Assembly: GCA_019456305.1 (NCBI GenBank) | Contig: VRUD01000034.1 | Location: forward strand, 1-42,674 | Direction: 5' to 3' | Length of the DNA stretch: 42,674 bases | Source of the DNA: Cytophagales bacterium | Lineage (GTDB): Bacteria > Bacteroidota > Bacteroidia > Cytophagales > VRUD01 | Shown here: in pieces, positions 1 through 42,674 of the stretch | Position numbering within the stretch: the first letter of the stretch is position 1 | How the letters are laid out: each line of letters opens with the position of its first letter | Made by a program: the position numbers and the translations under genes | The notes under the pieces: generated by a model | What the model was told of the DNA's origin: nothing | What the model saw: only the letters and a program-made list of their open reading frames with translations | Databases searched by the model: none

Positions 1-125
1 GCGGGCAGATATTTTTTTATTATTCTTACATAAGGGAGCGTGTAGGTTTGGATGAGAGCATCGTGGTAGCTCCAGTAGGTTAGTATTAGAATATTTTTAG
101 TTCCTTTTATCTTAATTTCTGTCAT
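1..125 (-). CDS. Glycosyltransferase, N-terminal end only (cut by window edge)
   Basis: Reading leftward from an ATG at 123-125 there is an open frame of 41 codons to the window edge. It reads MTEIKIKGTKNILILTY, then WSYHDALIQTYTLPYVR. The pattern of a short lead, a hydrophobic beta strand (NILILTYW) and a polar DALIQTYTLPY segment is typical of the first strand and helix of GT4-type (GT-B fold) glycosyltransferases in Bacteroidota polysaccharide loci. The start overlaps the stop of the GT2 gene upstream by 14 bases, so the two are probably translated as one operon. The catalytic part lies outside the window, so donor and acceptor cannot be inferred. The family call rests on general resemblance of about 40 residues. 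Confidence 0.6.
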   Translation of the reverse strand, partial: MTEIKIKGTKNILILTYWSYHDALIQTYTLPYVRIIKKYLP

Positions 126-1074
126 TTTTTAGCGCCTCAATTAATTTTTTCCCTATTAATATTTTAGGCAGTAACATTAACAACTCTTTCCTCAACCCAA
201 TTTCGTTAACTGCTTTCCACCAGAATTTCAATCCATTTTTTAAATCATTATCCAGATAACTGTGAATAGCACAAAAATAGAAAGAGTAACCCTTTAAAGT
301 AGAAATTTGTTTTGGTACTAATGGCACGTTTTTGTTGATCCAATCTGTTGCCAGGAGTCTTTTTTGTATTATCATCTGGTTATCTGAGCGCATGGATCTG
401 GCAAGGTGGTCACGTACCAGAATGGTTGATCTTCCAATAATATAAATTTTATCATGAATCAGGTTTTTGACAAGAAACATCCAGTCCTCCATAATGGCAT
501 ATTTCCTATCTTCATGAAACCGATTCACCTCACCCCCTACCCCCTCTCCACCAAGGTGGAGAGGGGAAATAAATGGATCTTTTTTAATACAAAAATGACA
601 GGCAAAGGGATTTCCCTTTAATACCAGGTCAATATCATAAAAACCTTCCTGCAAACGGCTTACGGTTGATATTTGTAGTGAGCGGGCATGCCCGCTCACT
701 ACACTACGAAAAAATTCATATTTGGTAGCAAAAAAATTCGCCTCAGGGTAACCTTTAATGGTATCATATAACACCTGCAGGTGATCGGGTTTCATCAGAT
801 CATCTGAATCAAAGAAGATAATATAGCAGCCTTTGGCTTTTTCAATACCATTATTCCTGGCAGCTCCTCTTTCTGCATTTTTTTGCCGTAAATAATTTAT
901 TTTAGGATCATTACCAAACTGCTGCTTAATAATTTGCTGCGTATTATCCGTACTACCATCATCTATAATAATAATTTCAAAGTCTTGAAAATCCTGTTTT
1001 ATTATAGAGCTGATTGTTTCACCAATAAGATGAGATCGATTATAGGTTGGAATTATAATACTAAAGAAAGGCAT
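112..1074 (-). CDS. GT2 glycosyltransferase carrying two palindromic inserts
   Basis: A GT-A fold, family 2 transferase that would move a sugar from a nucleotide donor to the growing surface glycan at the cytoplasmic membrane. Numbering from the longest frame (ATG at 1098), the N-terminal FFSIIIPTYNR strand (11-21), IIIIDDGSTDNT (42-53) and the metal-binding DSDD (97-100) are all present. I prefer the ATG at 1074 (MPFFSIIIPTYN), because family members start just before this strand and the 8 extra residues add nothing. Two palindromic DNA elements are read through in frame: one gives residues about 131-141 (SVVSGHARSLQ), the other about 177-193 (Gly/Glu-rich ISPLHLGGEGVGGEVNR). Both fall after the donor-binding half, in the variable acceptor half, where an insert is easiest to tolerate. 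The frame stays open on both sides, so the protein is probably made, though activity is uncertain. Confidence 0.85.
   Translation of the reverse strand: MPFFSIIIPTYNRSHLIGETISSIIKQDFQDFEIIIIDDGSTDNTQQIIKQQFGNDPKINYLRQKNAERGAARNNGIEKAKGCYIIFFDSDDLMKPDHLQVLYDTIKGYPEANFFATKYEFFRSVVSGHARSLQISTVSRLQEGFYDIDLVLKGNPFACHFCIKKDPFISPLHLGGEGVGGEVNRFHEDRKYAIMEDWMFLVKNLIHDKIYIIGRSTILVRDHLARSMRSDNQMIIQKRLLATDWINKNVPLVPKQISTLKGYSFYFCAIHSYLDNDLKNGLKFWWKAVNEIGLRKELLMLLPKILIGKKLIEALKNDRN
526..566 (-). repeat. Palindromic element A, in-frame inside the GT2 gene
   Basis: A C-rich head (cacctcacccccta, 526-539) is followed by a hairpin, cccctctccacc / ggtggagagggg, with 12-base arms and a two-base loop (541-566). 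Two more copies of the same head-plus-hairpin lie at 11385-11456 and 11531-11587. The copy here lacks the aactttgaa tail seen at 11531-11587. Its GC content stands out sharply from the AT-rich gene. Confidence 0.9.
675..702. repeat. Perfect 28-base palindrome inside the GT2 gene
   Basis: The 14 bases gtagtgagcgggca are followed directly by their exact reverse complement. The element is translated as part of the GT2 protein (SVVSGHARSLQ). It has the same size and build (GTAG...GCATGC...CTAC) as the core of the palindrome at 28014-28067, although the inner bases differ, so the two may be variants of one family. Confidence 0.9.
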
Positions 1075-1111: not shown

Positions 1112-1131
1112 CATCCCGAGTACTCGGGATG
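1112..1131. repeat. Palindromic element C (CCCGAGTACTCGGG), intergenic copy
   Basis: A perfect 20-base palindrome, CATCCCGAGTACTCGGGATG, lies between the GT2 and MBL-fold genes. Other copies of the core are at 22843-22858 (inside wzt) and 38716-38731 (one mismatch). A degraded relative may be at about 11636-11656. Confidence 0.85.
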
Positions 1132-4128: not shown

Positions 4129-4902
4129 TCATAAGATATTTTCATACAATGCATCATATTCTTCAACCTTACCTTGGTTTCTAAATGAGACCACCAGGTC
4201 TGCTAACTTAAAGGAGTTGTTTCTAAGAAATTCATCTACCTGATGATACTGACATCCATCTTGATAAATTTCATGATTGTTCATTTCTAGTAATACATAT
4301 CTGGTTTTTAAAAGAGATATTATTGCTCCTTTTAAAATTGATAATTCGGTACCTTGTGTATCTATTTTAATCAATAAAATATTTTTGGCATTATCAAATT
4401 CTTTATCAACTGTTGTAACTTCAACATTTTGTTTTTCTACAAGCTGGAATTTTGATTTATGTTCATCCGGGAATAAATTTATTTGGAAATCATTTAATTC
4501 ATTTAATGAGGATGATAAACTATTTTCGGTAACATTTAATATGGCGTTGCCCTGTTTTTCACCTAAAGCCATGTTTTTTAGTATAATATTTTTATAATTA
4601 CTACACTTTAATTTTGCAAATTCAAATAATTTAAGATAGGGTTCGTAACTATAAACTTTCAAATCTTTGTAATGCTTTGCAAAAAACAGGGAAGTATCAC
4701 CATTTGCACAACCAATATCTATTATTACCGATCCTTTTAAATCGGTTTTTCGCTTTTTTATTAAATTTACTGTTCTGAATAAATGTTCTGAAGGATTTGT
4801 AAAAAAGTTATCTTTAACATAATAATAGATAAATTGATTGATTTGAAAGGGAAATAAACAAAATTTGATTGCATATTTAGCAATAATCTTAAATAGGTTC
4901 AT
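4129..4902 (-). CDS. FkbM-family SAM methyltransferase
   Basis: A Rossmann-fold methyltransferase that transfers methyl from S-adenosylmethionine to a sugar hydroxyl. It shows motif I (IIDIGCANGDTSLFF), the acidic strand YSYEPYLK, and the FkbM-specific LLIKIDTQGTELSILKGA and VLLEMNNHEIY boxes. The frame is open from an ATG at 4926, but I choose the ATG at 4902 (MNLFKIIAKYAIKF, 257 residues). That ATG makes an ATGA overlap with the TGA of the upstream GT87-like gene, the usual mark of translational coupling. It is closely related in layout to the FkbM gene at 19502-20338: both share LEMxNHxxYQ and an EYDA/EWDA-type end. It probably O-methylates a residue of the surface glycan. Confidence 0.9.
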   Translation of the reverse strand: MNLFKIIAKYAIKFCLFPFQINQFIYYYVKDNFFTNPSEHLFRTVNLIKKRKTDLKGSVIIDIGCANGDTSLFFAKHYKDLKVYSYEPYLKLFEFAKLKCSNYKNIILKNMALGEKQGNAILNVTENSLSSSLNELNDFQINLFPDEHKSKFQLVEKQNVEVTTVDKEFDNAKNILLIKIDTQGTELSILKGAIISLLKTRYVLLEMNNHEIYQDGCQYHQVDEFLRNNSFKLADLVVSFRNQGKVEEYDALYENIL

Positions 4903-6254
4903 AATACAAGCATTCTTTTTGCCCATAACGGTAATGTATGTATCATCATAAAAATAAGGTATGCAAAAATATACCAGTTTATGAATTCCTCAATAAGGGT
5001 ATAAAGAAAAAAATAAAATTTACCAAATAATACATACGACCAAAAAGTAATGATAATACCTATCAGCGCAAGCATTGTAGGTGTTCTTATTACATTATTG
5101 TCACTACATGAATGTTGTGTTACATTGTTGTACTTTACCCAAGCTAATAGCTGGGGTATAGCAAATATTAAGAAAATAAATTTATAGTCAAAATTATTTC
5201 CGATCAAAAATGTGCCGATATAAATACAAGCGCCTATTTTAAAGCTGAAAAAATGGTCTTTTTGAAGGCTCCGGGTACTCCCTGAGTGCCCGGATTCTTC
5301 AAAAAGATTTACTTTATTGAGCAAGGCCGATTTTTGCTTTTTTACTATAAACAATAATGTTAATATGAGAACAGCTATTGTAGCGTAAGCAATTATTTTT
5401 ATAGGTATCAAAGAAAATATATTATGAAATATGGGATAGTAATCCAATAAATTTAAAAAAACAAGGCAGCCATATTGCGTTGCTACAGATATTGACCAAT
5501 ACTTTTCCTTAAGAAGATGACTTATGTAAATAATATCCTGCAGGTTGAAAAAAATATAAATGATGCCAATAGAAAGTAAAACAAAAAAAAGGATCAATGA
5601 TGGCTTCCTTCTCTCATTAAAAAATGCTGCGATTGTTGCAAATGGATATAATTTTAAAAATGAAGCAAGCATCAAAAATGTACATGACCAAAAAACAGTA
5701 TATTTTTTTTTGACAATTAAAACAGAAAGAGCACATAATATAAAAATGAACAAGTCAGGATTACAACGTTCTACTGCCAGCATGATCGGAGGTGAACACA
5801 TTATTAAACCATAATATATTCCTTCATTGACATTTAATTTACCAATTAACCAAAAAGTAAAAACATAAAATATGGTAACAATTCCAATAGCTATAGCAAT
5901 AATGTTATCATACGAAAAAGGGAGATATGAAAAAAGAAGCCACATTCTTGGGTAAGAATAATTTTCATGATAAGGATGACATGGGTTAGTGCTTAATACA
6001 TCATATCCTTTTCTATAACACTCAAAAATTGAAATATTGATGTTTAAATCCAAAAATAAAGTTTTTGCTGCAGGCACACCAAAATACTGCCAGAAATTGG
6101 TGTAATCCATAAAAAAAGATGAAACATATATTGCAATAAAATATAATGTTATTACTAATAATAAAACCACCCTGCCATCAACTCTGGATTTCTTAGAGAT
6201 AAAAAGTATCAATTTATCTGCAGCGTTATTGATAAACTTTATTAAATATTTCAT
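4899..6254 (-). CDS. GT87-like polytopic membrane glycosyltransferase (copy 1)
   Basis: A 451-residue membrane protein with roughly ten hydrophobic segments, starting at VVLLLVITLYFIAIYVSSFF. It fits the GT-C fold, DUF2029/GT87 type, with an acidic residue after the first helix (FMDYTNFWQY), an RCNPDLFIFILC segment and LASFLKLYPFATI before a cytosolic FNERRKP loop. Such enzymes use a polyprenyl-phosphate sugar donor on the outer face of the membrane. The next gene upstream (6276-7604) is a tandem paralogue, identical along many stretches. This copy differs by an in-frame hairpin insert at 5257-5307 (LFEESGHSGSTRSLQKD) and by a short extra segment (VTQHSCSDNNV). The insert lies in a loop between helices. 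Substrate unknown. Confidence 0.75.
   Translation of the reverse strand: MKYLIKFINNAADKLILFISKKSRVDGRVVLLLVITLYFIAIYVSSFFMDYTNFWQYFGVPAAKTLFLDLNINISIFECYRKGYDVLSTNPCHPYHENYSYPRMWLLFSYLPFSYDNIIAIAIGIVTIFYVFTFWLIGKLNVNEGIYYGLIMCSPPIMLAVERCNPDLFIFILCALSVLIVKKKYTVFWSCTFLMLASFLKLYPFATIAAFFNERRKPSLILFFVLLSIGIIYIFFNLQDIIYISHLLKEKYWSISVATQYGCLVFLNLLDYYPIFHNIFSLIPIKIIAYATIAVLILTLLFIVKKQKSALLNKVNLFEESGHSGSTRSLQKDHFFSFKIGACIYIGTFLIGNNFDYKFIFLIFAIPQLLAWVKYNNVTQHSCSDNNVIRTPTMLALIGIIITFWSYVLFGKFYFFLYTLIEEFINWYIFAYLIFMMIHTLPLWAKRMLVL
5257..5307. repeat. Hairpin element inserted in-frame in the GT87-like gene
   Basis: Two arms of 24 bases (5257-5280 and 5284-5307) are complementary at 21 of 24 positions around a three-base loop. 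The core (ccgggtactc / gagtgcccgg) resembles a drifted element C. The tandem paralogue has no counterpart at the matching place, so this is an insertion rather than ancestral sequence. Confidence 0.8.
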
Positions 6255-6275: not shown

Positions 6276-7604
6276 TCATTTTTTACTTAATAATAGCATC
6301 CTTCTTGCCCATAGAGGTGATATATGTATCATCATATAAATAACGTATGCAAAAATATACCAGTTTATTAATTCCTCTATAAAGATCCAAACAAAAAAAT
6401 AAAATTTACTAAATAATACAGTTGACCAAATAGTGATGATAATACCCGCCAGTACAAGCATCGTAATGGTTCTTATTTCATTGTTGTACTTTACCCAGGC
6501 TAATAGCTGGGGTATGGCAAATATTAAGAACATAAATTTATAGTCATAATTATTTCCGATCAAAAATGTGCCGATATAAATAGAAGCACTTATCTTAAAA
6601 TTGAATAAATGTTTCTGAACCGTCCCCATTATTAAATCGGAGTTTAATTTCTGGTTTTTTATGATATATATCAGTGTGAATATAAGTATAGCTACTATGG
6701 TGTAAGAAATTATTTTTGCAGGGATTACAGAAAATATATAATGAAAGAAAGGGTAGTAATTCAAAAAATCAAATAAAACAAGACAGCCATATTCTGCCAC
6801 AACATATTTTGACCAAAACTTTTCTTGAAGATTATGACTTATATAAATAATGTCCTGCAGGTTTAAGAATATATAAATGATACCAATAGAGAGTAAAATA
6901 AAAAAAGCGATTAAAGATGGCTTTTTTTTCTCATTAAAAAATGCTATGATTGTTGCGAATGGATAAAGCTTTAAAAATGAAGCAAGCATCAAAAATGTAT
7001 ATGCCCAAAAAGCAGGATACTTTTTTTTGACAACTAAAACAGCAAGGGCACATAATATAAAGATATATATGTCAGGATGACAATATTTTACTGCCAGCAT
7101 GATTGGAGGCGAGCACATTATTAACCCATAATATATTCCCTCATTAATATTTAATCTACCAACTAACCAAAAAATAGAAGAATAAAATATTGTAATAATA
7201 CCAATAGCTATACCAACAGTACTATCAGTCGACACATGAAGATTTGAAAAAAGAAGCCAAATTCTTGGATAAGAAAAATATCCATGATAAGGGGTACATG
7301 GGTTAGGGCTTAATACATCATACCCTTTGCTGGAACAGTCTAAAACTGAGATTATATAGTTTAGATCCATAAACAAAGTTTCTGCCTTAAATACACCTAA
7401 ATACAACCAGAATTTGTCGTAATCCATAAAAAAAGATGAAACATAAATTGCAATAAAATAGAAGCTTATAAATAATAACAGAATTATTCTGCCATCAAGA
7501 TTAGAAGGTTTTGAGATGAAAAGTGCAAATTTATCACCAGCGTCATTAAGAAACTTAGTTAGATAATTTGAAAATTTGGTAATTTGAAAATTTGTAGAGT
7601 ACAT
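6276..7604 (-). CDS. GT87-like polytopic membrane glycosyltransferase (copy 2)
   Basis: A 442-residue membrane protein, paralogue of the gene downstream. Shared blocks include FYFIAIYVSSFFMDY, NEGIYYGLIMCSPPIMLAV, SFLKLYPFATI, IGIIYIFLNLQDIIYIS and YIGTFLIGNNYDYKF. It lacks the hairpin insert of its neighbour: between helices it simply reads IKNQKLNSDLIMGTVQKH. It starts MYSTNFQITKF, about 17 residues longer at the N-terminus than copy 1. The tandem pair, 21 bases apart, arose by duplication and may add the same sugar to two different positions, or one may be redundant. It is divergent from the gene at 7673 across a 68-base spacer that must hold its promoter. GT87 assignment is by topology and weak motifs. 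Confidence 0.75.
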   Translation of the reverse strand: MYSTNFQITKFSNYLTKFLNDAGDKFALFISKPSNLDGRIILLLFISFYFIAIYVSSFFMDYDKFWLYLGVFKAETLFMDLNYIISVLDCSSKGYDVLSPNPCTPYHGYFSYPRIWLLFSNLHVSTDSTVGIAIGIITIFYSSIFWLVGRLNINEGIYYGLIMCSPPIMLAVKYCHPDIYIFILCALAVLVVKKKYPAFWAYTFLMLASFLKLYPFATIIAFFNEKKKPSLIAFFILLSIGIIYIFLNLQDIIYISHNLQEKFWSKYVVAEYGCLVLFDFLNYYPFFHYIFSVIPAKIISYTIVAILIFTLIYIIKNQKLNSDLIMGTVQKHLFNFKISASIYIGTFLIGNNYDYKFMFLIFAIPQLLAWVKYNNEIRTITMLVLAGIIITIWSTVLFSKFYFFVWIFIEELINWYIFAYVIYMMIHISPLWARRMLLLSKK

Positions 7605-11384: not shown

Positions 11385-11456
11385 TTCACCTCACCCCCCA
11401 GCCCCCTCTCCACTGACCCCGATACGCTTCGCAACGGGGCAGGCGTGGAGAGGGGG
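11385..11456 (+). repeat. Element A interrupted by a second hairpin element (nested)
   Basis: The outer element reads head, then ccccctctccact (11402-11414), and resumes with cgtggagaggggg (11444-11456). The intact copy at 11531-11587 has only AA between these parts (ccactAAcgtg, reading its minus strand). Here 29 bases (11415-11443) are inserted, starting gaccccg and ending cggggcagg. Confidence 0.85.
11415..11443 (+). repeat. Inner element B inside element A
   Basis: It has arms ccccg / cgggg around atacgcttcgcaa and ends in cagg. The same build (ccccgac ttt gtcgggg cagg) occurs free-standing at 27789-27809. Confidence 0.75.
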
Positions 11457-11530
11457 AGTTTTTTCTGATTTCTTTTTTTGTTCCTCTGCTGTCTTGATTA
11501 TAATAGATGTCTTCAATATTTTATGTTCTA

Positions 11531-11587
11531 CCCTTCAAAGTTCCCCCTCTACACGTTAGTGGAGAGGGGGGTAGGGGGTGAGGTGAA
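11531..11587 (-). repeat. Element A, intact intergenic copy in inverted orientation
   Basis: Read on the minus strand: ttcacctcacccccta head, ccccccctctccact / aacgtg / tagaggggg hairpin, then aactttgaaggg tail. With the copy at 11385-11456 it forms a large inverted repeat of about 200 bases overall. Confidence 0.85.
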
Positions 11588-28013: not shown

Positions 28014-28067
28014 AAGCTAAAGTTGAGTAGAGACGTTGCATGCAACGTCTCTACTCAACTTTAGCTT
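28014..28067. repeat. Perfect 54-base palindrome forming the stop of fcl
   Basis: The two 27-base halves meet at 28040/28041 and are exact reverse complements. The inner 28 bases (gtagagacgttgca plus its complement) look like the mobile core, because the element inside GT2 (675-702) has the same length and ends. The outer 13 bases (aagctaaagttga) on the right are fcl codons, and they are copied in inverted form on the left. The TAG stop of fcl (28051-28053) lies in the core. As RNA it is also a very strong hairpin downstream of fcl. Confidence 0.95.
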
Positions 28068-28980
28068 TGAACGCTTCATACGTTGATCTTATGCCATTCT
28101 CTAATCCAATATGGTATTTCCAACCTAATGAGTTCATTCCGGAAACGTCTAATAACTTCCTGGGAGTTCCATCCGGTTTTGTGCTGTCAAACTTTAATTC
28201 ACCTTCAAAGCCAACGATCTCTTTTATCAATAACGCCAGGTCTTTGATCGTAATATCTTCACCGGTACCAATATTTACTACCTCTGCTTTATCATAATTC
28301 AACATTAAAAAAACACAGGCATCAGCCAGGTCATCAACGTGTAAGAATTCTCTTTTAGGTTTCCCGGAACCCCAGATTTCCACACTTTGAGCATCATTTT
28401 CTTTTGCTTCATGGAACTTCCTGATCAAAGCCGGCAGCACGTGTGAATTTTTCAGGTCATAATTGTCCCCGGGGCCATACAGGTTGGTTGGCATTACACA
28501 AATAAAATTACAGCCATATTGCGAGCGATACGCCTGGCACATTTTAATGCCTGCAATCTTTGCTATGGCGTAAGGTTCATTGGTGGGTTCGAGCAGACCT
28601 GTTAAAAGGTATTCTTCCTTCAAAGGCTGCGGGGCTAATTTAGGATAGATGCAGGATGAGCCTAAAAAAAGGAGCTTTTTCACACCGGTTTTATATGCCT
28701 GGTGAATTATATTATTTTGGATGGTCAAGTTATCATAAATAAATTCAGCACGATACGTGTTATTCGCTAAAATTCCCCCAACTTTGGCTGCTGCCATAAA
28801 AACATATTCGGGTCGCTCACTTCCAAAAAATTTTCTAACCTCTTGCTGATCTCTCAGGTCTAATTCTTTTGAAGCCCGGTAAAGCAGGTTATCATAACCC
28901 TCTCCTTCCAATTTTCGCATGATGGAAGCGCCTACCATACCCGTGTGCCCGGCTATGTATATTTTGCTGGTTTTATTCAT
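28051..28980 (-). CDS. fcl: GDP-L-fucose synthase
   Basis: Converts GDP-4-keto-6-deoxy-mannose, made by Gmd, to GDP-L-fucose by epimerisation at C3 and C5 and NADPH reduction, in the cytoplasm. It shows [14 protein letters not shown] (NADP-binding GxxGxxG), [35 protein letters not shown] (catalytic Ser), [19 protein letters not shown] (YxxxK) and [13 protein letters not shown], all hallmarks of Fcl/WcaG. The frame is open from an ATG at 29010, but I use the one at 28980 ([14 protein letters not shown]), which gives the normal family start and about 309 residues. The last codons and the stop overlap the 54-base palindrome. gmd is upstream, with a small broken gene in between. Confidence 0.95.
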
Positions 28981-29025
28981 TTTTATTATCAATAAATCAA
29001 CAAAAGTCATTTTTTAATACTTTTA

Positions 29026-39848: not shown

Positions 39849-42674
39849 TTATCTCATCAAAACAATTTTCTTAATGAATATTTCCTGCGGAGTTTTAACC
39901 TTTACATAATATATGCCGGTTGGCCGACCGGAAAAATCTACCTTAAATAATTCATTTGCAATTTTCTGCTGTGGGATTTTGTAAATTAAATTACCTGTCA
40001 AATTATAAATTGCGACCTCTGTTTCCTGTTGATCAGTGAATGAAAATTCAATGATCAATTCATCTTTGGCAGGGTTGGGGTAGATTTTTAATTGATCATT
40101 GACCAATGTATAATGGCGAACACCAGTAGGCAAAAGCCGGTTTGATACATTTGACCTGGCAGAATTGTAGATTAGTACCTTACTCAGATTTGGATCACAG
40201 CTCGCAGGATGCTTTACAACAACCCGGTAAGAGAGGTTTGCAGGGGGTGGTGAAAAGTCTGTACGTGAGGTCAGCGTACTTGCAATTGAATCTATCTCCA
40301 CCCAGCCGGTTGACGTTGTATACCTGTGAATATAATAGGTGAGAAACCCAAAACCCTCATAATGATCCCATATCAAATTAATAACCCCGCCTAATCCTTC
40401 ATTGATGGTGAGGTGCATGGTTTTGTGTAACTGACTTTTTTCTGACTCATTACCACAGGAATCTACTACTGATATCCTATACCTGTACGCCTGCTGAAGC
40501 GGGTTTGACAATGTGTCTGTAAATACGCTTACACTGTCAACAGGAACGTTTCCTATCAAATAATAGGTGCCGGCTTGTGAACTCTCCCTGTAAATATTGT
40601 ATGATTGCACGCCCTGTGTCTGCAGCTTCTCCCATACTACAAGGTTGCTGCCCGTGGCGCTATCAACCGTAACAAGGCATATTGAAGCATCTGTTGCAGG
40701 CACCCCTGATATGTGAGCGCTTTCAGTTGCGATACAGCCGTTCGTAGTATCGGTTACTGTCACACTATAAGTTCCTGACGATACGCCAACAAGGTCCTGT
40801 GTAGAAGAGTTGTTTGACCACAGGTAAGTATAATCTCCCGAACCTCCTGTTAAAGTTATGTATATTGAACCCAGATCAGCTCCGCAGCCCCCGTCTATGA
40901 TTGAATCTATTGTGATGGTAGCTCCGCCAATATCGCTTACTGCTGCTGTGGCTGAATCGGTACAGTTGTTTGCATCTGACACTGAAACAGTATAAACTCC
41001 GGCTGTTAAGCTGTCTTCAGTAGAATCTGTTCCGCCTGTACCCCATTGGTATATGTATGGGCTAACTCCTCCGCTTATGCTTACCGTTGCGCTGCCTGTG
41101 TTATTTCCGCAATTTGCATCAGTGGTAGTTACTGTAAATAAGAAAGGATCGGGCTGAGTGAGGGTAACGCTTTTATTGGCAATGCAACCTGTAGAATCTG
41201 TAACCGTCAGTTCATAGGGCCCGGCAACCAAACCTGTGATAACCTGTCCGGTGCTTCCGTTTGACCACTGGTAAGTAAAAGGCGCTGTTCCGCCTGATAC
41301 ACTCACAGCAATTGAACCATCTGAACCACCATTACAGGTAATATCATTTGCTGCCACCACCGTGATAACTGGCCCGTTATTGTCGCTGATGATGGCGATC
41401 TCAAAGTTTGAGCAACCATTGTCGTCTGTAACGGTTACAACATAAATACCTGAAGCCAGGCTGTCTGCATCGGGCAGCGTATCTCCGCTTGACCAGGAAT
41501 AAGTATAAGGAAGGGTGCCAAAAGTAACAGCGACTGATGCGCTGCCATCTGAATTGCCGCAAGTGGCATCTGTTGGAGTGATGGCCAGGATCATTTCAGG
41601 GGTTGAAATAACAGTGACCGTTGCTATTTCTAAACAGCCGATAGAATCGGTTACAGCCACATTATAAGTGCCTGCACACAGGTTTGTTGCAGTGGCAGTA
41701 GTCTGTGATGAAGGGTCGTCCCATAAATAGCTGTAAGGTTCGGTACCTCCGAAGCCTATTCCAGTTGCTGTGCCATTGCATACGGCAATACAGGAGGCAT
41801 TTGTGTTGGCTGTGCCGATGGTTAGGATATATAAAGTTGAAATGGTAACGCTGCCGGTGGCGGTGCAGCCGTTAGAATCGGTTATTGTCACTGAATATGT
41901 GCCTGCGCATAGATTTGGAAATGTTTGTGTAACGGGCATTGATGGGTCGTCCCACAGGTAAGTGTAAGGTGGGGTGCCTCCTGAAACAATTGCGGTTGCA
42001 GCGCCATCACACACGCCATTGCATGTGGCGTTGGTGACAGTAAATGAAACTGAAAGCGAATCGGGCTCTGTGATGCTTATGGTATCTGAAACGTTACAGC
42101 CTAAGCTGTCGGTAACGGATACCCAATAACTACCTGCTGCAAGCCCTGATATTGAATCTGTGGTATCTCCGGTTGACCAGAGGTAAGTGTAAGGCGTTGT
42201 GCCACCTGTTGCTGTAACCGTTGCTGTGCCGTTATTGCTACCGCAAGTGGCAGGTACAATAGTAACAGAATCGGTAATGGCTGTCAATACCGTTAAATTA
42301 GTTGTAACAATACTATCGCAACTGTTAACCGCTGTTAATGTATCAGTGTAAGTTGCGCTCACGGTGTAAGTGTTTGTTCCAACGGTTACGCTTTCTCCTG
42401 CGCACACGGTGGGCGATTGTGAAAATGTGTTTGCAGGCAGTACAGTTAAATTAGTTGTTACCGTACTGTCGCACCCATTGACTAATGAAGTTAAGGTATC
42501 AATATAGGTATTGCTCACGGTGTAAGTGTTTGTTCCAACGGTTACGCTTTGCCCTGCGCACACGGTGGGCGATTGTGAAAATGTGTTTGCAGGCAGCACA
42601 GTTAAATTAGTTGTTACCGTACTGTCGCACCCATTGACTAATGAAGTTAAGGTATCAATATAGGTATTGCTCAC
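39849..42674 (-). CDS. Giant SprB-repeat T9SS surface protein, C-terminal 941 residues
   Basis: The C-terminal part of a secreted protein; its N-terminus is beyond the right edge. It begins with nearly identical 52-residue repeats (DTLTSLVNGCDSTVTTNL, VLPANTFSQSPTVCAGQSV). Seven SprB-type repeats of about 70 residues follow, each with a C-G/N-G start, a GGxxPYTYLWS-type core and a GxYxVxVTDxxGC end. Then come two fibronectin-III-like stretches (SYNIYRESSQAGTYYLI, TYYIHRYTTSTGWVEI) and a T9SS type A sorting domain (KIYPNPAKDELIIEF, then GIYYVKVKTPQEIFIKKIVL). SprB is the gliding adhesin of Flavobacterium; here gliding is not proven, but a long, sticky surface fibre is likely. Confidence 0.9.
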   Translation of the reverse strand: MSNTYIDTLTSLVNGCDSTVTTNLTVLPANTFSQSPTVCAGQSVTVGTNTYTVSNTYIDTLTSLVNGCDSTVTTNLTVLPANTFSQSPTVCAGESVTVGTNTYTVSATYTDTLTAVNSCDSIVTTNLTVLTAITDSVTIVPATCGSNNGTATVTATGGTTPYTYLWSTGDTTDSISGLAAGSYWVSVTDSLGCNVSDTISITEPDSLSVSFTVTNATCNGVCDGAATAIVSGGTPPYTYLWDDPSMPVTQTFPNLCAGTYSVTITDSNGCTATGSVTISTLYILTIGTANTNASCIAVCNGTATGIGFGGTEPYSYLWDDPSSQTTATATNLCAGTYNVAVTDSIGCLEIATVTVISTPEMILAITPTDATCGNSDGSASVAVTFGTLPYTYSWSSGDTLPDADSLASGIYVVTVTDDNGCSNFEIAIISDNNGPVITVVAANDITCNGGSDGSIAVSVSGGTAPFTYQWSNGSTGQVITGLVAGPYELTVTDSTGCIANKSVTLTQPDPFLFTVTTTDANCGNNTGSATVSISGGVSPYIYQWGTGGTDSTEDSLTAGVYTVSVSDANNCTDSATAAVSDIGGATITIDSIIDGGCGADLGSIYITLTGGSGDYTYLWSNNSSTQDLVGVSSGTYSVTVTDTTNGCIATESAHISGVPATDASICLVTVDSATGSNLVVWEKLQTQGVQSYNIYRESSQAGTYYLIGNVPVDSVSVFTDTLSNPLQQAYRYRISVVDSCGNESEKSQLHKTMHLTINEGLGGVINLIWDHYEGFGFLTYYIHRYTTSTGWVEIDSIASTLTSRTDFSPPPANLSYRVVVKHPASCDPNLSKVLIYNSARSNVSNRLLPTGVRHYTLVNDQLKIYPNPAKDELIIEFSFTDQQETEVAIYNLTGNLIYKIPQQKIANELFKVDFSGRPTGIYYVKVKTPQEIFIKKIVLMR
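42361..42672 (-). repeat. 156-base tandem repeat, at least two copies, running off the window
   Basis: Copies at 42361-42516 and 42517-42672 differ at only 3 of 156 bases, and the next one begins at 42673. Each encodes 52 residues with two cysteines (NGCDS, VCAGQ). The third, more worn unit lies just left of 42361. Confidence 0.93.

Follow-up and report, generated by a model that had tools for sequence, protein, structure and literature searches.

How does a glycosyltransferase gene come to carry two palindromic segments that are both read through in frame, and do these segments belong to the protein family or to mobile DNA that has been kept as peptide? The question arises at the start of the window, by which we mean the whole stretch of 42,674 nucleotides analysed here. 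It comes from a draft genome of 4.245 Mb in 159 contigs (98% complete). The features concerned are the following.

112..1074, minus strand: GT2 glycosyltransferase gene, host of elements A and B; 320 amino acids from its ATG; PF00535, E=1.8e-37.
526..566, plus strand: element A, a tail (526-540) followed by a hairpin (541-566); in-frame peptide on the minus strand SPLHLGGEGVGGEV.
674..703, no strand assigned: element B, a perfect 30-nt palindrome TGTAGTGAGCGGGCATGCCCGCTCACTACA of 'double-foot' form, GTAG...CTAC; in-frame peptide SVVSGHARSLQ.
1115..1128, no strand assigned: a copy of palindrome F2 (CCCGAGTACTCGGG), approximately 40 nt upstream of the GT2 start codon.

On the minus strand, the GT2 reading frame opens with the ATG at 1074 and closes with a stop at 112. 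A first, sequence-only reading of this DNA had placed A and B in frame within the gene, and both are indeed translated without a stop. The same reading recognized B as a perfect palindrome, which it is, but gave its length as 28 bases (675-702), where the symmetry extends to 30 nt. Its residue numbers, 131-141 and 177-193, are those expected if numbering begins at an upstream TTG; with the ATG as residue 1, B occupies residues 124-134 (SVVSGHARSLQ) and A residues 170-183 (SPLHLGGEGVGGEV). Stops fall in one of three frames for B and in two of the three minus-strand frames for A, and GT2 uses an open one.

Element A is composed here of a conserved tail, CACCTCACCCCCTAC, and a 12-bp hairpin, CCCCTCTCCACCAAGGTGGAGAGGGG (541-566), and has no sequence relation to B. 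The A and B patterns were never recovered in 100 shuffles of the sequence, and a 200 kb first-order Markov control sequence contained no comparable hairpin. When GT2 was compared with its relatives, as the sequence-only reading had proposed, 18 homologues (the best 47% identical) were found to lack both inserts. Relative to these homologues the net gain is 13 residues at A and 6 residues at B, the latter being only 18 nt for an element of 30 nt. One scan of a collection of genome contigs with GT2 matched only distant glycosyltransferases, and the predicted structure (mean pLDDT 53, below 50 in the insert region) was uninformative on insert placement.

Dispersed copies and empty sites

Both elements are repeated elsewhere in the genome. 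Element A occupies 15 genome sites, 8 of them in frame inside ORFs and 7 intergenic, while all three copies of B lie in frame inside genes. Aligned copies of A define a unit of approximately 46 nt, YACCTCACCCCCnnnCCCCCTCTCCAC(2-4)GTGGAGAGGGGGAA, with unrelated flanks; the GT2 copy is a little shorter than this consensus. The in-frame hosts of A are GT2, PurM (AIR synthase), GcvP (glycine dehydrogenase), a glutamine synthetase-like protein, a TPR protein, a metalloprotease-like protein and ORFs of 491 aa (with no Pfam match) and 445 aa. The hosts of B are GT2, an acetoacetyl-CoA/acetyl-CoA synthetase-like protein and a SpoIIE/PP2C-type protein. With in-frame insertions spread across so many unrelated genes, the idea of a tolerance special to this region of GT2, raised in the sequence-only reading, finds no support.

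Intergenic copies of A tend to form inverted pairs (C34:11385/11541 and C12:31989/32105), and one of them is a perfect 54-nt inverted dimer, tail included; coding copies are single. One such pair lies in the window:

11385..11457, plus strand: intergenic copy of A whose loop holds an additional GC-rich hairpin; one member of an inverted A pair.
11541..11587, minus strand: intergenic copy of A in opposite orientation, 156 nt away, forming a REPIN-like pair with the copy at 11385.

Among 390 genomes of the order, A-like units were found in four others and B in none, and a plasmid search for A and B gave no match. In two of the stretches from other genomes of the order (L107 and L108), A-like inverted pairs stand 70-100 nt apart and carry a different loop (CTCACCCCCYRRCCCCCTCTCCGAAAAGGAGAGGGG).

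Sites that are filled in this genome and empty in relatives recur outside GT2. Twelve PurM relatives (65-71% identical) lack the A insert, the closest reading LTEK-YKNLPIDIGKLVL where this genome has LTDLSPLSTSVERGLGGEVSVGELVL, and the element of approximately 47 nt accounts for a net gain of only 27 nt. The A insert in GcvP (net gain 11) is missing in five relatives, and downstream of it an F1-type palindrome (family F1 is described below) lies in a stretch that is also missing from them. Solved structures of PurM and GcvP relatives agree that the A insert is missing. PurM carries, in addition, a second insertion of 14 residues, PHPPSITHIPSPII (L007, approximately residues 291-305 of the 413-aa ORF), which is missing in 12 of 12 relatives and whose DNA is not obviously palindromic.

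On alignment, the clearest series of empty and filled states is that of the PP2C paralogues, in which a single site is empty in L150 (and L147; GMDIALCNIDLTNNILQYSGAYNPL), holds B in L124 (GMDIAICSIGVVNGHARSLQYAGAYNPL) and in L146 is filled by a B-like palindrome that encloses a central F1 palindrome (GMDMTLCKIEVVNGDFVETLHVTSLQNPHSLQFAGACNPL). Here too the 30-nt element B yields a net gain of only 9 nt. A further case lies within the window:

5257..5307, no strand assigned: imperfect 51-nt palindrome, in frame, inside a GT87-like gene (4902-6254, minus strand).

The tandem paralogue of this gene at 6279-7604 lacks the palindrome, with a net difference of 39 nt. As net gain is usually below element length, clean insertion is not the whole story: from these alignments, target sequence seems to have been lost on insertion or trimmed later, and drift in loop length between distant homologues could add to the small net gains.

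Further palindrome families and nesting

A and B are part of a larger population. In a census of 0.84 Mb of the genome (40 stretches and the window), which also served for the context of F1 and F2, we found 119 strong hairpins, against none in the 200 kb control. Most prominent among the several REP-like palindrome families of the genome are F1, F2 (CCCGAGTACTCGGG), A and B. F1 has the form GTAGAGACG-centre-CGTCTCTAC and is present in 77 exact copies in the whole genome. Its hosts include PriA (two insertions), MoeA, a peptidase M1-domain protein, a FAD-binding protein and another GT2, and in alignments the PriA and MoeA elements are in frame, in stretches missing from solved relatives. One copy lies in the window:

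28014..28067, no strand assigned: F1 element (GTAGAGACGTTGCATGCAACGTCTCTAC with 13-nt palindromic extensions), a perfect 54-nt palindrome.

This copy overlaps the end of a NAD-dependent epimerase gene (28051-29010), to which the GTAG of F1 supplies the TAG stop codon (28051-28053).

F1 also extends far beyond this genome, occurring in 25 of 148 genomes and 20 of 83 genera of the phylum, with constant arms and a centre that varies by genome and is mostly palindromic itself. It is found in plasmids of Nostoc and Anabaena. Cyanobacterial plasmids share the 28-mer GTAGAGACGTTGCATGCAACGTCTCTAC without any difference with several genera of Bacteroidota, and plasmids of Anabaena and Planktothrix carry an identical copy of the 28-mer with centre TTGCATGCAA. 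Coding copies occur there as well: the 28-mer lies in frame in a polyketide synthase gene of Planktothrix, and a variant approximately 90% identical lies in frame in a peptide synthetase gene of Halotia. Phage records yielded no F1, and the exact 28-mer is present in three viral contigs.

Several other repeats were noted in passing. The coding segment SPPLTPPKGGRTGQ...GKSDGKVPPFGGDLGG, common to different ORFs in L124 and L140, appears to be one more dispersed element that is translated in frame. AT-rich 95-nt palindromes (TGCCACTAAATCACCAAAGCACTAAATCCCAC...) occur at several sites in L116-L155, together with hairpin-forming tandem runs such as CAGTCGGCAGT and AGCTATTAGCT. The window ends in a large ORF (39849-42674) with tandem repeats of approximately 156 and 228 nt, encoding a repeat-rich protein.

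The number of copies retained in genes can be set against a simple expectation, the intergenic copy density multiplied by the ORF-based coding fraction of 86%, then filtered for a length that is a multiple of three and an open frame. For F1, approximately 101 coding hits are predicted from the intergenic density and approximately 19 remain after the filter, against 14 seen; for A, approximately 7 are expected after filtering and 8 are seen. Frame filtering alone therefore nearly explains the kept copies of A and F1, a rough agreement on small numbers and mechanical ORF calls. F2 does not fit, being under-represented in genes (21 seen against a frame-filter expectation of 75). Among the four examined of five candidate split genes, Pfam assignments revealed no gene broken by an element; all were separate genes.

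F1 palindromes are commonly nested. Of approximately 29 genuine F1 copies, 25 have flanking sequence that carries the symmetry outwards for another 5-20 nt. Some of the outer arms belong to known families, with F1 lying in F1, in a B-like unit, in F2 or in AGCGCATAGC...GCTATGCGCT, and the remaining outer arms are locus-specific. This nesting fits two readings: either a palindrome inserted at the tip of an existing hairpin, or template switching lengthened the inverted arms. The aligned PP2C series supports hairpin-tip insertion, at that one locus. More generally, we suggest tentatively, and with rather more doubt than conviction, that palindromes preferentially enter the exact centres of existing palindromes, become nested in frame in housekeeping genes, replace target sequence and are common to Bacteroidota and Cyanobacteria. 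If true, centre-insertion would be a mode of very small mobile DNA undescribed for REPs or RPEs in the literature examined.

Mobilization and competing explanations

A and B are probably two families of short, non-autonomous, REP-like mobile palindromes that insert roughly at random, are filtered by reading frame and are kept as near-neutral additions. Palindromes of this type would enter genes and non-coding DNA alike; copies causing a frameshift or introducing a stop codon would be purged by selection, and in-frame copies at permissive places would persist, adding a near-neutral stretch of approximately 9-20 residues to the protein. GT2 would have taken two such insertions. The dispersal of the elements, their in-frame reading, the empty sites in homologues and paralogues and the nesting of palindromes are all observed features of this genome; the neutrality of the inserted peptide we infer. 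The view of the sequence-only reading, that these are selfish-type palindromes inserted in coding sequence and kept as peptide, gains support from the dispersal of the copies and from the GT2 homologues devoid of both, and it has withstood the refuting condition that this reading had set, homologues with the same residues.

Candidate enzymes are present in the genome. We identified REP-associated tyrosine transposase (RAYT) genes in C61, C27, C47 and C84, along with five subclass 1.2-like Y1 genes, using the Y1 subclass motifs of PMC6006769. None of the Y1_Tnp/RAYT loci examined has a copy of A, B or F1 within approximately 1.5 kb, and action in trans is therefore proposed: whether A, B and F1 are mobilized by a Y1 (HuH) REP transposase or RAYT acting on single-stranded hairpins is, in our judgement, evenly balanced. 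Such an enzyme would also suit insertion at hairpin centres. A neighbouring transposase for A and B was sought and rejected, as the five subclass 1.2-type Y1_Tnp genes carry their own, different flanking repeats; likewise, the proximity of F2 to three Y1 genes is unremarkable given its intergenic density. At least one coding palindrome family does have a local RAYT: the palindrome AACGATGCCATCGC lies at and just past the end of the C47 RAYT gene and also occurs twice in frame in a 2038-aa protein. The C27 RAYT gene (L192) itself contains two in-frame copies of the block SSDDWMIRGxGSSDE...SSDD, made of TCATCCGATGA-type repeats. These in-frame palindromic repeats separate the HuH motif from the Tyr motif, an arrangement already reported for subclass 2.4 (PMC6006769).

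The strongest competitor dispenses with a transposase. Template switching or hairpin-primed synthesis during replication could copy an arm inversely so that a palindrome grows around its centre; for the coding palindromes of Nematomorpha mitochondria, the former is among the mechanisms considered (PMC6649704). Many F1 copies do carry perfect locus-specific extensions of 10-20 nt, the 54-nt inverted dimer of A includes the tail, and target sequence appears replaced, not merely interrupted. On the other hand, such an origin leaves unexplained why identical cores recur at dozens of unrelated loci and why the 28-mer GTAGAGACGTTGCATGCAACGTCTCTAC is identical across cyanobacterial plasmids and several Bacteroidota genera. 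We consider it unlikely as the source of the elements; it may have shaped their arms after insertion.

It is a good deal less probable still that the palindromes act at the DNA or RNA level, in transcription pausing, mRNA stability or gyrase or nucleoid binding, with the peptide as a by-product. Many intergenic copies at gene ends, and the stop codon that F1 gives at 28051-28053, would be in keeping with such a function, but intragenic copies lie in unrelated genes in various frames and positions, and the numbers of A and F1 kept approximate those predicted from frame filtering alone. That palindromes were mis-joined during assembly is scarcely credible: they are difficult to assemble and the draft comprises 159 contigs, but approximately two-thirds of artefacts would break the frame, yet long ORFs run across the elements, and conserved protein flanks them on both sides in PurM, GcvP, PriA and MoeA. 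Equally, that the two segments are normal parts of the GT2 family, palindromic by chance, has the intact reading frame in its favour and nothing further, and is refuted by the 18 homologues without them and by the presence of the same DNA in unrelated genes.

Comparison with known systems

The double-foot REPs of RAYT group 4, or TnpA-REP subclass 2.4, have a GT[AG]G 5' foot and a C[TC]AC 3' foot (Quentin et al. 2018, PMC6006769). This subclass is abundant in Cyanobacteria and Bacteroidetes and includes in-frame REP insertions inside the tnpAREP (RAYT) genes themselves (PMC6006769), so that Bacteroidota do have a described equivalent, whereas the sequence-only reading knew of no well-described one. 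B (GTAGTGAGCGGGCATGCCCGCTCACTAC) and F1 (GTAGAGACG...CGTCTCTAC) have the GTAG 5' foot and the CTAC 3' foot; A does not, the bases after CTCACCCCC varying (TAC, TAA, TAG, TGC, CAT, CAA, CGG). At the loci examined, A, B and F1 do not flank a cognate RAYT gene, and B and F1 are therefore classed as REP-like and not as proven double-foot REPs. They also differ from double-foot REPs in that their hosts are housekeeping genes and in that palindromes are nested at the centres of others.

Rickettsia palindromic elements (RPEs), according to citing accounts, comprise several families that lie in frame in functional genes as well as between genes (Ogata et al. 2000, 2002, via PMC6649704 and PMC3733652). 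The elements described here resemble them as palindromic repeats read in frame in functional genes and missing from homologues or paralogues (GT2, PurM, GcvP, PP2C). The likeness claimed is one of mode of action; the lineage lies outside the Rickettsiales, and the palindromes are nested. The units are also shorter, at 28-47 nt, than RPEs, which are approximately 100-150 nt long.

Intragenic GTAG and CGTC REPs are known from several species besides Rickettsia (Di Nocera et al. 2013, PMC3733652), where some ORFs are hit twice, the termini often give TAG stops and many hosts are DNA synthesis and repair genes. The F1 terminus likewise gives the TAG stop of the epimerase gene at 28051-28053; in contrast, the hosts here are of all kinds, and intragenic copies make up approximately half of those of A and F1. 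With REPINs and BIMEs (PMC3116915), some intergenic A copies have the inverted pairing in common, whereas coding copies of A are single units and A is without the conserved GTAG tag. Cyanobacterial small dispersed repeats, cited as very small mobile elements (Elhai et al. 2008, via PMC2884548), are alike by description, and F1 itself occurs in cyanobacteria, on the Nostoc and Anabaena plasmids. Classification as MITEs, in which terminal inverted repeats from a full transposon enclose an interior and the target site is duplicated, was rejected: the units of 28-47 nt have no interior, and no target duplication was seen, target sequence being rather lost.

Earlier work has thus described in-frame palindromes in Rickettsia, in a number of other bacteria (PMC3733652) and, within RAYT group 4 genes, in Cyanobacteria and Bacteroidetes (PMC6006769). 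What seems to be new is that a single Bacteroidota genome has several families within its housekeeping genes, that palindromes are nested at the centres of others, and that target sequence appears to be replaced. Protein-coding palindromes are no oddity of Rickettsia, and the phenomenon extends to a new lineage, in whose genome they are read in frame in purine, glycine, molybdopterin and replication-restart genes. Such a genome constitutes a natural experiment on how frequently proteins tolerate random insertions, and its nested palindromes offer a handle on the target choice of REP-like elements.
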